Virus record (IMG/VR): IMGVR_UViG_3300030430_001253
Span: 1-31,600 of that record
Strand: one strand, 5' to 3'
DNA: 31,600 bases
DNA from: a virus
Part shown: piece by piece, positions 4,419 through 18,017 of the stretch
Layout: each line of letters begins with the position of its first letter
Position numbering within the stretch: the stretch's first letter is position 1
Made by a program: the position numbers and the translations under genes
The notes under the pieces: model-generated
The model's database searches: none
The model's input: only the letters and a program-made list of their open reading frames with translations
What the model was told of the DNA's origin: nothing

Positions 4419-7106
4419 ATGGCTCAACACGATTACGTTATAGACAACTCCACTGGGGCAAACGTGAGAGCGGACATAAATAATGCGTTGTTGGCAATAT
4501 CTTCAAATAATTCTGGATCATCCGCACCATCTACAAACTACGCAAGTCAATTTTTTGCTAATACTTCAACAAGTATTATGCAACTTAGAAATACATCAAA
4601 TAATGCTCATGTAAATGTATTTACCCTTGCTGGTGGACCAGCTTTTGCTGTTGATGGAACAATAAACTCTGTAAATATTGGTAAAGGTGCAAACTCTGTT
4701 TCTGGCAATACTGTTCTTGGAGAAAGTGCTTTAGATGATTCTGTGAGTGGTGAAAATAACACTGCTATTGGAAAGGCTGCTTTGGGGGCTGCAACTAGTG
4801 GAGCTAATAATACTGCTGTAGGTGCAAATGCTCTAGATGCTGTCACAACTGGTTCAGCAAACACCGCCCTTGGTAGAAGTGCATTAGGAGCAAACACAAC
4901 GGCTGGTAATAATACAGCAGTAGGTTATTTTTCATTACTTGTTAACACTACAGGAGCATCGAATACAGCCGTAGGCACTAGGTCTTTAGATGCCAACTCA
5001 ACAGGTGATTCTAATACCGCTATCGGACTAAATACCTTAACGGAAAATACTACAGCCAGCAACAATACAGCAGTTGGTATGGAGGCACTAAAAGCAAACA
5101 CAACCGCCTCTAACAATGTAGCAGTAGGAAGGAGTGCTTTATTAGTAAACACCACTGGAACAGATAACGTAGCTGTTGGAGGTAATGCTTTAGATGCTAA
5201 TACTACGGGAAATCAAAATACAGGAATAGGTAGAAATGCATTAGGTTCCAACACAACAGGTCTTAATAACACTGCTGTAGGCTTTAATAGCCAAGCAGCT
5301 ACCACTACAGGTTATCCTAATACTTCTTTTGGTTCAGGCTCTTTAGATAACAACACTGAGGGTGCTAATAATACAGCTATTGGATTTGATTGTTTAGACG
5401 CAAACGTATCATCAAGTAATAATACAGGAGTAGGTCATCGATGCCTTACTTCAAACACAAGTGGAGCATCAAACGTAGCGGTAGGAGCTGATGCTCTAGC
5501 TGCTAATACTACAGCAAGTAATAATACGGCTGTTGGGTTTGATGCGTTAAATGCAAACACAACTGGAAATTCCAATACTGCTGTGGGTAAAGATGCACTT
5601 CTGACAAATACAACTGGTATTCAAAACTGTGCATTCGGTGTAAATGCTTTAGAACTTAATACGACAGGAGACAATAACACTGCCCTCGGTAAACAAACAT
5701 TAGCATCAAACACAACTGGAACTTTAAACACAGCAGTAGGTGCTAATGCTTTAGCTGCCAATACAACAGCAGATGAAAATACTGCTGTAGGTTTAAATTG
5801 CCTTATTAGTAACACAACAGGAACTAAAAATACTGCTGTTGGTTCTCAATCATTAGATGCAAACACCACTGGGGGTTCAAATACAGCTATTGGTATGAAC
5901 GCTCTAGGTGCAAATACCACGGCTGATTCAAATACGGCAGTTGGAAGAGTATGTTTAGCCTCAAACACAACTGGAACTCAGAATACAGGAGTTGGAAAAG
6001 GAGCTTTAAATTCAAATACCACAGCTAATGACAACACGGCTGTTGGTATGAATGCTATGTTGACCAATACAACAGGAGCTAGAAACACCGCAATAGGTCT
6101 TTCAGCACTACTAAATAACACTACAGGGAATGATAATGTTGCGGTAGGAAGAATTGCTTTACAAGCTAATTCAACTGGTGGTCAAAATACTGCTATTGGT
6201 GTTGAAGCTTTAAATGACAATACGACAGCTACAAATAATACTGCTGTAGGTTATTTATCTTTAACAAAAAATACAACTGGAACAGAGAACACAGCCAGTG
6301 GAGTAAATTCTTTAAGAAAAAATACAACAGGATCTTACAATTCAGCCTTTGGTTTTGGTGCTTGCCAAGCCACCACAACTGGAAATAATAATACATCAGT
6401 CGGATATCAGGCTTTAACACTTAACACAACTGGTGCTCAAAACACTGCCGTTGGTTCTGGTGCTTTAGATGCAAGTACTACTGCTAGTTTTAATGCAGCA
6501 TTCGGAAGAGACGCAAGTCCTGATGTAACAACAGGAGAAAAGAATACTCATATAGGTTGTCAGGCAGGGGATGGTTGTACATCTTCAAGTAATAATGTTT
6601 GTGTTGGTTTTAATAGCGGAAACTCTAATGAAACAGATGTAATAACTATTGGTACTGATGTGACTAGCATAGGGAATGAAATAGTAACTTTTGGTAATAA
6701 TACTCTTGGAAGAGTACATAACACCTATTCTGCAAATGCAACTTGGAGTAGGACTTCAGATGTAAGGTTTAAAAAAGATATTTTAGATAATACTGATTGC
6801 GGTTTAGATTTTATAAACGATTTAAGAACAGTTACCTATAAATGGAAAGCACCTTCAGAAAGACCTTCTGAATTAATAGGATATGATGCTAACAAAACAG
6901 AACCTTCACATAAACAGAAAATGTATGGTTTTATAGCACAAGAAGTAAAACAAGTATTAGATAACCATAATATTACAGATTTTAATGGTTGGTATGAAGA
7001 TCAAAAAGATGGATCACAAGGTATATCTTATGAAATGTTTGTTATGCCATTAGTAAAAGCGGTTCAAGAATTATCAGCAAAAGTCACAGCCCTCGAAGCA
7101 GGGTAA
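4419..7106 (+). CDS. Tail fibre with 17-residue NTAVG repeats and C-terminal S74 intramolecular chaperone
   Basis: This 895-residue protein has a short N-terminal part (about 1-96), then 38 in-register 17-residue repeats (about 97-740) of consensus NTAVGxxALxxNTTGxx, then a C-terminal peptidase S74 domain (about 775-895). The repeats resemble the YadA-head beta-roll, so a long trimeric rod is likely. The S74 domain starts at SDVRFKKDI. Ser780 and Lys785 have the S-D-x-R-x-K spacing of the autocleavage dyad known from endosialidase tailspikes, so the chaperone should fold the trimer and release itself by cleavage before Ser780. A predicted coiled-coil tail (LVKAVQELSAKVTALEA) ends the chaperone. 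Probable role is host surface binding. Confidence 0.88.
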   Translation: MAQHDYVIDNSTGANVRADINNALLAISSNNSGSSAPSTNYASQFFANTSTSIMQLRNTSNNAHVNVFTLAGGPAFAVDGTINSVNIGKGANSVSGNTVLGESALDDSVSGENNTAIGKAALGAATSGANNTAVGANALDAVTTGSANTALGRSALGANTTAGNNTAVGYFSLLVNTTGASNTAVGTRSLDANSTGDSNTAIGLNTLTENTTASNNTAVGMEALKANTTASNNVAVGRSALLVNTTGTDNVAVGGNALDANTTGNQNTGIGRNALGSNTTGLNNTAVGFNSQAATTTGYPNTSFGSGSLDNNTEGANNTAIGFDCLDANVSSSNNTGVGHRCLTSNTSGASNVAVGADALAANTTASNNTAVGFDALNANTTGNSNTAVGKDALLTNTTGIQNCAFGVNALELNTTGDNNTALGKQTLASNTTGTLNTAVGANALAANTTADENTAVGLNCLISNTTGTKNTAVGSQSLDANTTGGSNTAIGMNALGANTTADSNTAVGRVCLASNTTGTQNTGVGKGALNSNTTANDNTAVGMNAMLTNTTGARNTAIGLSALLNNTTGNDNVAVGRIALQANSTGGQNTAIGVEALNDNTTATNNTAVGYLSLTKNTTGTENTASGVNSLRKNTTGSYNSAFGFGACQATTTGNNNTSVGYQALTLNTTGAQNTAVGSGALDASTTASFNAAFGRDASPDVTTGEKNTHIGCQAGDGCTSSSNNVCVGFNSGNSNETDVITIGTDVTSIGNEIVTFGNNTLGRVHNTYSANATWSRTSDVRFKKDILDNTDCGLDFINDLRTVTYKWKAPSERPSELIGYDANKTEPSHKQKMYGFIAQEVKQVLDNHNITDFNGWYEDQKDGSQGISYEMFVMPLVKAVQELSAKVTALEAG
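4707..6638 (+). repeat. 38 tandem 51-bp units encoding the 17-residue fibre repeat
   Basis: From Asn97 onward every 17 residues restart with N-[TV]-A-[VI]-G, with Leu near position 9 and N-T-T-G near 12-15, through residue 740. All 38 units keep the 17-residue spacing without an insertion or deletion. Codon use varies freely between units (for example aatacagctattgg against aacactgctgtagg), so the array is conserved as protein, not as recent DNA duplication. The last two or three units are more divergent and gain Cys residues. Confidence 0.9.
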
Positions 7107-11717: not shown

Positions 11718-12378
11718 TTTCTAGTTGTTTTTGTTTGTTTGTTAATTCTATTTTAAGGTTTTCATATTCTGTTTCAGTAATCACTTTTTCTAAGAATCTA
11801 GTTTCTATATTTTTTCTATGTTGTATCAGCATATCTTTAGTCTTAGCATTTGCTATTGCTTGTCTGGCTAAAACATAAGTAGGCTGTTTTCTTTGGCTGA
11901 CAGTTTTTTTCGCTGTCATTACTTGTGTAGCTTCTTCCTTCTCTTCTTTTTTCCATAGTTCGTGACCTAGACCAAAGTGAAAAGCTGCTGCTGCACATAA
12001 ACATCTACGATGAGAATCAGTTAAGTTTCTAGCTGTTATACTCTCGAATGCCATAGGATTCATTCGTTTGTCCATTATTGGAAATGGAAAGTCGCTAGTC
12101 CTTATACCTTCAGGAGATGTGAAATAGCCTATAAGATAACCAGTGCCATCTGGTGCTTTATGAACATAGTTATGCTCTTCGGTATTTGTTGGAAGTAAAT
12201 GAAACTCCCATCCATTTGCGTGTTCATGTAAAGAACTGGCGATAGATGCCCAGCAAGCATATTTGGCAACAAAACTGCCAGAGCCTTTTTCGTAGACATC
12301 TTGATCTTCTAAGAGATCAGCAAGATTCGGTTTATCAACCATGGTTGGTTTTTGTGCGGGAAAGTGTGAGTTTGTCAT
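11710..12378 (-). CDS. Single-strand annealing protein, Sak3/DUF1071-like
   Basis: In the 222-residue product, residues 97-142 read FPFPIMDKRMNPMAF, then ARNLTDSHRRCLCAAAAFHF and GLGHELW. This fits the Sak3/DUF1071 recombinase pattern (an invariant PxMD, then xxRCxxxAxAxFGLG). The N-terminal YACWASIASSLHE region also fits. Such proteins anneal complementary strands in phage recombination. It shares an operon with the RecE-like exonuclease, giving a Red-type pair. The C-terminal third is Lys/Glu-rich and probably helical. The start overlaps the stop of the DGQHR gene (ATGA). The family match is from memory of the motif. Confidence 0.6.
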   Translation of the reverse strand: MTNSHFPAQKPTMVDKPNLADLLEDQDVYEKGSGSFVAKYACWASIASSLHEHANGWEFHLLPTNTEEHNYVHKAPDGTGYLIGYFTSPEGIRTSDFPFPIMDKRMNPMAFESITARNLTDSHRRCLCAAAAFHFGLGHELWKKEEKEEATQVMTAKKTVSQRKQPTYVLARQAIANAKTKDMLIQHRKNIETRFLEKVITETEYENLKIELTNKQKQLENV

Positions 12379-16669: not shown

Positions 16670-17022
16670 TGGAAAAATCAAATATGTTTATCGGGTTTGA
16701 TGACCTGATGGGTAAAAGAGTTTGCAGACCCTTTGATAAAAAAGTTTTTTACATTACGACTATTGGATTTGACCCTACAATAGATCGCTTATCTATCTGT
16801 CTAATACCCAAAGAGATATTTAAATACAAAGAAATCCCAATGCATCCTGTAGTTTGGCATAGCGAACTAATGATCAATTGGGAAGATTTTTTTGACAATT
16901 ATTACATTTCTAGTATGGATGACAGGTCAATCCCTAAAACACAAATAAGTAGTGAAACTCTTAGAGTAAATTGGGATAAGATAGGAAAGCAATTTAAAAA
17001 AAGTTTTCAAAATAAAATATGA
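16669..17022 (+). CDS. Hypothetical early protein
   Basis: The frame is open from an ATG at 16624, but GTG at 16669 overlaps the previous stop as TAGTG and has GGAG just upstream. I therefore prefer 16669, giving 117 residues. The product reads MFIGFDDLMGKRVCRPFDKK, then a beta-rich centre (VFYITTIGFDPTIDRLSICL) and a basic end (IGKQFKKSFQNKI). It looks like a compact soluble protein. Function is unknown. It overlaps the next gene by 4 bases (ATGA). Confidence 0.6.
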   Translation: MEKSNMFIGFDDLMGKRVCRPFDKKVFYITTIGFDPTIDRLSICLIPKEIFKYKEIPMHPVVWHSELMINWEDFFDNYYISSMDDRSIPKTQISSETLRVNWDKIGKQFKKSFQNKI

Positions 17023-17315
17023 AACCAAATAAAAATAAAGGCAAATCTAAATTTAAGTTAGATAAGCTGCGAGAACTAAAAATCAAACAACTAGAAAAAA
17101 CTTTGATAGATGTCACTCTAAGGGGTGAAGAGCATTACATCTTCATCGATGAAAGAAACAAAGCACAGATAGTTAGCAACACTAAAGCATGGATTAGTGA
17201 GCATATCAAAACAGCAGTTCTAAAACACAACTATCAGGTCGATAAAGTTAATCAAATGTTGATTAGAGATTTTACTGATAAAGAACTTGATGAGTTTGAC
17301 AAACATTATGCTTAA
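17019..17315 (+). CDS. Small basic early protein
   Basis: The 98-residue product starts with a Lys-rich stretch (KPNKNKGKSKFKLDKLRELK). Two helix-strand segments follow (IKQLEKTLIDVTLRGEEHYI, then AWISEHIKTAVLKHNY), and it ends in an acidic part. Its high basic content would suit nucleic-acid binding, but there is no specific motif. It is the last gene of the rightward early operon, before the 282-base gap and a terminator. Confidence 0.55.
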   Translation: MKPNKNKGKSKFKLDKLRELKIKQLEKTLIDVTLRGEEHYIFIDERNKAQIVSNTKAWISEHIKTAVLKHNYQVDKVNQMLIRDFTDKELDEFDKHYA

Positions 17316-17332
17316 CCAACAGCAGTATTTTG

Positions 17333-17380
17333 AATACAAGTGGTGCACATAATACAGCTATTGGCCAATCTCAGCTATAA
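17333..17380 (+). repeat. Orphan fragment of the tail-fibre 17-residue repeat
   Basis: In one frame this stretch reads NTSGAHNTAIGQSQL and then a stop, matching the fibre repeat (NTTGAxNTAIGxxAL). At DNA level the core aataatacagctattgg-type sequence is nearly identical to a unit near 5360-5385 in the fibre gene. No start codon opens the frame here and it is more than 10 kb from the fibre gene on the map. It appears to be a relic or transferred piece, in a gene-free gap. Confidence 0.6.
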
Positions 17381-17421
17381 TTGAATTGAAGCTGTAGTGA
17401 GCTTTGCGAAAACGACAAATC

Positions 17422-17452
17422 GGGCATCTTTAACTAGATGTCCTTTTTTTTT
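17422..17452 (+). terminator. Intrinsic terminator of the early operon
   Basis: GGGCATCT (17422-17429) pairs with AGATGTCC (17436-17443), 8 bp with one G-U, around a six-base loop, followed by nine T. It should end rightward transcription of the early operon before the structured region and the convergent RusA gene. Confidence 0.8.
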
Positions 17453-17463
17453 GAATTATGATA

Positions 17464-17600
17464 TAGATAGCCGAGAATCCTGATGACCCTTGTGAACAGG
17501 TGTAGCAAGCAAGTCTGAAAGCCATAAAAAACCCAAAGCAACACGTGGGAAAGGCAGGGCACTCCAAAGCGGGGAAGTGATCGACCTCTTGGCTAATCTA
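17464..17600 (+). ncRNA. Candidate structured RNA closed by a 13-bp helix
   Basis: TAGAT AGCCGAGA (17464-17476) pairs with TCTTGGCT A ATCTA (17587-17600): 13 pairs with one bulged A and one G-U wobble, which is stable as plus-strand RNA. Inside are a GUGA-capped hairpin (CCTTGTGAACAGG), CACTCC pairing with GGGGAAGTG, and GTGTAGC pairing with GCAACAC around one mismatch. A long closing helix around several internal pairings suggests an RNA domain or a DNA cruciform. It lies just after a terminator and no promoter is evident. I could not match it to a known RNA class. Confidence 0.4.
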
Positions 17601-18017
17601 TAAAGTTTTGATATAAATATTAGTACCAGTTCTCTCTCCTACTTCACAATACCTTTTATAAGCATTAAGTTTTACTACTTGTGAATCATCAACAATCACT
17701 GACGAAGTAAGGCCATCTAGAGTAGAACGACATAGCTTATCAATATCACCTCTTTTGGTGGTTAGAAAAATTGGTGCAGATTTGCGAATCTTGCCATATG
17801 CGTCAAAATGGGCTTTCGGTCTAGAAAATTTAAATTCTAAATTTATCTCTATCGGCTCACTAATCAAGTCTTTGACTTTCAATTTACCCGCTTTCACTAC
17901 AGCTTTTCGATATGGTTTTACACGCTTGCAGGATTCTATTAATCTGCCTCTCCCAATATAAGTTTTACTGCCTTGAGGGGCAGGCATTACATCGTCAATA
18001 GAAAGAGTAAGATCCAT
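17598..18017 (-). CDS. Holliday junction resolvase, RusA-like
   Basis: The 139-residue protein has the RusA hallmarks: a GRGRLIESCKRVKPYRKAV N-terminal block, GDIDKLCRSTLDGLTSSVIV with Asp91 and Asp93 followed by Lys94, Asp101, and the DDSQV motif (Asp110, Asp111). These Asp residues bind the catalytic metal in RusA. It resolves branched DNA during replication and recombination and prepares it for packaging. Length fits the family (about 120-140). It starts only 3 bases from the divergent initiator gene, so its promoter must overlap that coding region. Confidence 0.88.
   Translation of the reverse strand: MDLTLSIDDVMPAPQGSKTYIGRGRLIESCKRVKPYRKAVVKAGKLKVKDLISEPIEINLEFKFSRPKAHFDAYGKIRKSAPIFLTTKRGDIDKLCRSTLDGLTSSVIVDDSQVVKLNAYKRYCEVGERTGTNIYIKTL

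Follow-up and report, generated by a model that had tools for sequence, protein, structure and literature searches.

A dispersed, untranslated 48/49-bp dyad element with tail-fibre repeat sequence at intergenic boundaries of phage contigs

A fragment of tail-fibre repeat sequence lying between two phage genes belongs to an untranslated 48/49-bp dyad element that is dispersed among viral contigs. It was studied in the 31,600 nucleotides of IMG/VR record IMGVR_UViG_3300030430_001253, and this whole stretch is referred to as the window. The element has homology to the fibre repeat, does not code for protein, keeps a near-fixed geometry, changes in copy number between close relatives and is shared between contigs. 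As the leading explanation, to which we give somewhat less than even confidence, we propose that the element is derived from fibre-repeat DNA and recombines at boundaries where genes are swapped, which would give it a candidate role resembling that of the promoter early stem-loop cassettes (PeSLs). It would then be a gene-swap spacer and not a broken piece of the phage's own fibre gene. If this is true, a repeat of a receptor-binding protein exists in phages in a form that is mobile and untranslated, the element can be searched for to find gene swaps at operon boundaries in marine phages, and it can be asked whether fibre and intergenic repeats supply each other with sequence. It also cautions that fibre-like fragments in phage gaps need not be relics of the resident fibre.

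Fibre-repeat sequence outside the fibre gene

The coding counterpart of the element is a tail-fibre gene of the window (4419-7106, + strand), which contains an array of 51-nt (17-codon) repeats and a C-terminal Peptidase_S74 domain. The original prediction described a stray piece of this repeat at 17333-17380, and its basic observations hold: the stretch translates to NTSGAHNTAIGQSQL followed by TAA, lacks a start codon, and lies in a gene-free gap between a 98-aa ORF (17019-17315, + strand) and a RusA-like gene (17598-18017, minus strand) that reads towards the gap. The reported near-identical DNA core was recovered as well, the best pairwise match being 17342-17364 against 5361-5383 (21 of 23 bases, E 7e-4). 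Local alignment to the fibre, which had been suggested as a check, gave a divided answer, as the score of 18 exceeds those of 2000 shuffles (mean 10, sd 1.2, maximum 16) but an unrelated spot near 30.4 kb reaches 17.5. Being marginal, the pairwise alignment was dropped as a proof of homology, and a profile built solely from the 35 fibre units of the window phage itself was used instead. This profile assigns 35.3 bits to 17333-17364 on the + strand, where the next best spot outside the fibre scores 18.7 bits; real fibre units average 33.3 bits, and the highest score reached in 100 random first-order genomes was 17.3 bits. Because the score tops the fibre-unit mean and lies far above those elsewhere and in random genomes, the resemblance is real, and 17333-17364 has fibre-repeat sequence in common far beyond chance. 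In relatives, the fragment is not part of an unrelated conserved gene.

The reverse strand of this spot also matches the fibre repeat (25.4 bits with the same profile), which had been overlooked, and it does so because 17316-17364 is a single 49-bp quasi-palindrome made up of NTAVG codons in inverted orientation, a 21-nt centre that contains NTSG, and NTAIG codons. The left arm CCAACAGCAGTATT (17316-17329, minus strand), whose reverse complement AATACTGCTGTTGG reads NTAVG, matches the inverted right arm at 12 of 14 positions. As read from the sequence, the centre (17330-17350, + strand) holds AATACAAGTGGTGCACAT (NTSGAH) and the right arm AATACAGCTATTGG (17351-17364, + strand) reads NTAIG; 17333-17364 as a whole reads NTSGAHNTAIG. 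The T-A-V codons themselves account for part of the symmetry, since ACNGCNGT equals its own reverse-complement pattern. The predicted extent was thus correct for the fibre-like part, but the true feature is a non-coding dyad element of 49 bp at 17316-17364 (+ strand), and the QSQL codons and stop (17365-17380) fall outside the conserved unit. These new boundaries follow from the fibre-only profile, the 14-21-14 arm-gap-arm geometry and homologous units in L022, G002, G003, G004, G006 and other contigs. It was also considered whether the left arm is a sense linker with two deletions, which is possible in places (units 2-4 of L038), but the conserved pattern CC..AC..GC..GT.TT fits an inverted NTAVG better.

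The locus and its closest relatives

The first base of the element directly follows the stop codon of the 98-aa ORF, which is 94% identical in L022 and 87% identical in a contig without the element. At 17376-17381 (+ strand), 11 nt downstream of the element, the sequence TATAAT was recognized by eye as a candidate -10 box, and it occurs at the same distance in L070. In the window it is weak as a -10 box because a good -35 is missing, and a promoter consensus scan of the window strand neither scored it nor found a promoter on that strand. A terminator scan identified an intrinsic terminator with an 8-bp stem and a T run (17422-17452, + strand), which also folds as a hairpin, and no known RNA family or tRNA was found in the gap. 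Two further regions of the gap are of separate interest. Between terminator and RusA, 17468-17595 (+ strand) is likely a structured RNA with the conserved core CCTGATGA..stem..CTGAAAG..GGCAGGG and a closing stem; many relatives, and the cultured phages MED4-117 and MED4-184, have it in the same position, and it has no Rfam match. The region 17382-17452 (+ strand) possibly encodes a small RNA of about 65-70 nt that ends at the terminator (17422-17443); it folds better than most shuffles (z -2.26) and has no scored promoter.

The window terminase is 74.5% identical to those of the Prochlorococcus phages MED4-117 and MED4-184/P-HS2 and is also similar to those of the Synechococcus phages S-H1 and KBS-S-2A; judged by its sequence, the window groups with cyanosiphovirus-like phages. 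These four cultured relatives carry neither the fibre repeats nor the element. Among the closest contigs, L022/L004 have two units at the site (49 nt apart), the window has one and G001/L005 have none, and L022, the window and G001 are otherwise 91-96% identical over their aligned length. The comparison with close relatives, which had been proposed to learn whether the fragment is fixed, variable or absent, thus shows it to be variable, with 0, 1 or 2 units; the contigs of L022 and G001 do not extend as far as the fibre. The window unit resembles a fusion of the left part of unit 1 of L022 with the right part of its unit 2, with one unit lost. A reading of the window site against G001 is ambiguous and reveals a CCAA repeat at the unit ends.

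A family of non-coding units with near-fixed geometry

Further copies were gathered by pattern scans of IMG/VR, and about 20 other viral contigs proved to contain the same non-coding element, singly or as tandem copies. There are two to five units in G002 (L030), G003 (L032), G004 (L038) and G006 (L044), one unit in the group L067, L068, L070, L073 and L075, many units in L076/L078, L077/L079 and L081/L082, further copies in L072 and in L071 and L080, and a diverged form in L043/L045. The remaining pattern matches were either coding fibres (L066, L074 and likely L069) or unrelated. The arrays have short open frames and are interrupted by stops in each frame, and a coding use was rejected on this ground. 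Two strict pattern scans of bacterial genome contigs did not find the element, and similarity searches of cultured phages gave weak or no matches, the best of them inside an adhesin-like gene.

Arms were called with the fibre-coding profile, and strong arms within 60 nt of each other were paired. The inward gap is 19 nt in two pairs, 20 nt in 17 and 21 nt in 13, with three others of up to 60 nt, so that 32 of the 35 pairs fall at 19-21 nt; the 21-nt class is partly selected because three of the patterns fixed spacings that favour the 49-nt form, while the pattern that found the L071-L082 groups left their 20-nt gap free and the repeat units within an array were not each selected. Outward joints between units measure 0 nt in 18 cases, a value that one search pattern had fixed, and the arm consensus is partly ascertained because exact-pattern searches fix some bases. 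Same-strand units follow at a period of 48/49 nt, and just once at 51 nt, whereas fibre units follow every 51 nt. Two local repeats differ from this scheme: L080 contains at 2180-2540 dense tandem copies of AATGTAGCAGTAGG and AATACCGCAGTAGG in 17- and 21-nt steps inside its array, where they form a local expansion that differs from the 48-nt units, and the phage G005 (L064/L065; 45% G+C) carries GAACAATTGTACTG five times (one with C for G) within about 1.6 kb on the reverse strand of 4615-6230, partly beside the diverged form of the element.

Relation to the fibres

When the 32-nt sense half is compared, non-coding units from different phages agree with one another at 27-32 of 32 bases and with the best unit of the fibres tested, their own included, at 23-28 of 32, with two fibres lower. 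The window unit matches its own fibre at 26/32, the fibres of three of four other phages at 25-26 and non-coding units elsewhere at 29/32. It is therefore no closer to its own fibre than to others and closer to non-coding units, and its dyad geometry is found again in many further contigs, both of which speak against the proposal that the fragment is a relic of the window phage's own fibre. What remains of the original prediction is a homologous, non-coding and variable fragment, and its readings as own-fibre relic or donor are not supported.

The arrays of G002, G003, G004 and G006 are 83-89% identical to L022 over 79-101 nt, and the genomes elsewhere mostly share less than 70%. Likewise, the L077 and L078 arrays are 80% identical over 392 nt, and nothing else in the two contigs is similar at the nucleotide level, but short contigs such as L076/L078 and L077 could come from separate regions of related genomes, and this would weaken the cross-lineage argument. 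G006 possesses an array together with an S74 fibre (390 aa) that has no repeats, as far as this partial contig extends. This sharing between phages and the array beside a repeat-less fibre indicate that the element is independent of the resident fibre. We infer that it descends from fibre-repeat coding DNA and is now inherited and exchanged as an intergenic element in its own right. The direction from fibre to element, and not the reverse, is suggested by the fibre repeat being what we take to be a widespread YadA/Hep_Hag-like protein motif.

Gene exchange around the arrays

In G002, G003, G004 and G006, as judged by reading, the array has a terminator-like hairpin on one side and a repeated promoter-like motif on the other. 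Region 11950-12300 of G003 aligns with the other three phages and its flanking genes differ; altogether, three upstream and three downstream genes occur in recombined combinations around the block, which is the gene exchange expected of a PeSL. The arrangement in G006 is recombinant, with the upstream gene as in G002 (85% aa) and the downstream gene as in G004 (65% aa). Two observations on these contigs may be added here. The motif ACCGAACA..GGGGAA..TATAAT stands ahead of several genes in L063, L055, L057 and L059 (G002, G003, G004 and G006), with at most four copies per contig. Both ends of the 38.2-kb contig of G003 (L055 at the start, L056 at the end) lie within its fibre repeat array; the assembly was therefore probably broken at this array, and the contig may represent a complete genome.

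At the window site, only the change in copy number and a more diverged upstream gene are seen, with no gene swap, and only the downstream terminator scores, unlike the terminator-array-TATAAT arrangement of the four phages. L077 and L081 have a TTGACA/TATAAT pair after the last unit, with TTGACA 4 nt after it, and in L076/L078 the array is located between a tail-tip gene and the fibre. The common factor of the element sites is thus an intergenic boundary, not a set promoter distance.

Based on the one set of four phages, the element, often together with terminator and promoter, may provide short homology at transcription-unit boundaries, at which phage recombination could swap the neighbouring cassettes; a RecE-like exonuclease and RusA are encoded in the window. 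The element would spread and stay because this homology block serves gene-cassette exchange, and slippage between units would add or remove copies. A direct regulatory role is possible. Two further points count against exchange: promoter blocks without arrays could serve equally as exchange points, and constraint on codon positions 1 and 2 of the arms could point to a sequence-specific role beyond what homology needs.

Constraint on the arms and alternative explanations

In most aligned arrays, differences at the first and second codon positions of the arms are about half as frequent as those elsewhere, and the wobble position changes at about the rate of the spacer. Judged against a neutral simulation that includes motif ascertainment, the ratio is about 0.5 in most aligned pairs, which are not all independent, single comparisons give P 0.03-0.09, and G002/G003 shows nothing. 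This is suggestive of sequence constraint on the arms, but shuffling of units that had diverged while coding could mimic it.

The main rival to the exchange explanation, which we consider clearly less probable, is a protein-bound operator or enhancer, in which a dimeric protein of phage or host, acting on an adjacent promoter or on replication, would bind the inverted 14-bp arms as its half-sites. The near-fixed spacings of 20/21 nt and 0 nt and the constrained arm positions would fit such a site, as would the arrays just upstream of promoter-like sequence (TTGACA in L077 and L081, TATAAT in the window and L070). However, variation at every third base, as in codon wobble, is odd for a protein site, the distance and position of promoters vary between lineages, the window TATAAT is without a good -35, and the position of the L076/L078 array between tail-tip gene and fibre does not agree with it either.

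Slightly less probable again is the view that the units are functionless pieces of fibre repeat, captured by illegitimate recombination and shuffled by slippage. The codon-like differences among units (NTAVG, NVAVG, NTGVG, NTTVG) have the look of a coding-array history, and the units are missing from some close relatives. Inert relics would hardly repeat an inverted geometry across many contigs, be closer to each other between phages than to fibres, or diverge less at fixed arm positions than the neutral simulation in most pairs. Comparably doubtful is a bolder reading of the same constraint, in which the units would be an undescribed class of mobile, constrained DNA element of marine phages whose half-sites are five fibre-repeat codons (N-T-A-V-G) set back to back at fixed spacing. 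Such units, untranslated and keeping codon positions 1 and 2 while the wobble drifts, would imply a factor that reads fibre-repeat DNA with codon-like tolerance and links the spread of arrays to fibre-gene recombination.

We regard as improbable that the element acts as RNA, either through a hairpin or through antisense arms that pair with fibre mRNA. A transcript of either strand would include sequence complementary to fibre codons, and the fold of a single unit reaches -11.6 kcal/mol (z -1.85), but the two-unit fold is unremarkable (z -1.05) and the G006 array exists without fibre repeats. Paired stems are unsupported since the arms do not covary: the oriented match is 10.17/14 against 10.54 when permuted (P 0.97), with no compensatory excess, and a hairpin under selection was rejected on this ground. 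Least probable of all is the second idea of the original prediction, a donor cassette that varies the fibre by gene conversion, for although RecE-like exonuclease and RusA are present and the 32-nt stretch retains the fibre codon spacing, copying a whole unit of 48/49 nt instead of 51 would shift the frame, half of the unit is inverted, the own fibre is not preferred, and G006 combines its array with an S74 fibre that has no repeats.

Comparison with known systems

A description of the element was absent from the literature searched, in which coverage of subscription journals was thin, and the 48/49-base palindromic element is apparently undescribed. With silent donors of the pilS/vls type, which are in register with and most similar to their own gene, it does not agree, as the unit has 49 nt and shows no preference for the own fibre. 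It resembles the template repeat of diversity-generating retroelements in that non-coding sequence matching a receptor-binding gene lies at a distance from that gene, but the unit length differs, the halves are inverted, and no reverse transcriptase was found among the window proteins searched, which covered small ORFs in part. REP/MITE-like bacterial elements (reviews PMC2229807 and PMC10969869) are short intergenic inverted repeats of variable copy number. The 14-20/21-14 arrangement likewise has terminal inverted repeats, but a link to a transposase, looked for through family scans, was not seen, and the CCAA repeat at the unit ends is an ambiguous sign of target-site duplication. The palindromic elements of Rickettsia and Wolbachia are mentioned in PMC2996958 as small palindromic repeats that are related to coding sequence and insert into unrelated genes; here, in contrast, the coding copies lie in a dedicated fibre gene and the fixed geometry is seen just in the non-coding form.

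The closest published case we found of horizontally spread dyad-symmetric repeat DNA is that of the PARCELs, translated 25-residue units of bacteria and protists with dyad-symmetric DNA, a punctate distribution, shuffling and horizontal spread (PMC2996958). The inverted arms give our element the same dyad symmetry, but it is a phage element of 48/49 bp whose coding relative is a 17-residue fibre repeat, and it is not translated in tandem within an ORF, having stops in all frames and a 48/49-nt period. PeSLs are described for T4-like phages, in PMC4503421 with citation of Arbiol 2010 and Comeau 2014, as intergenic promoter-terminator blocks linked to shuffling of the neighbouring genes. Our element differs from them in occurring in siphovirus-like phages, in being a tandem dyad that derives from a coding fibre repeat, and in that the window copy stands outside a clear promoter-terminator pair, but as with PeSLs, a block, here of terminator-like hairpin, array and promoter-like motif, separates different genes in G002, G003, G004 and G006.
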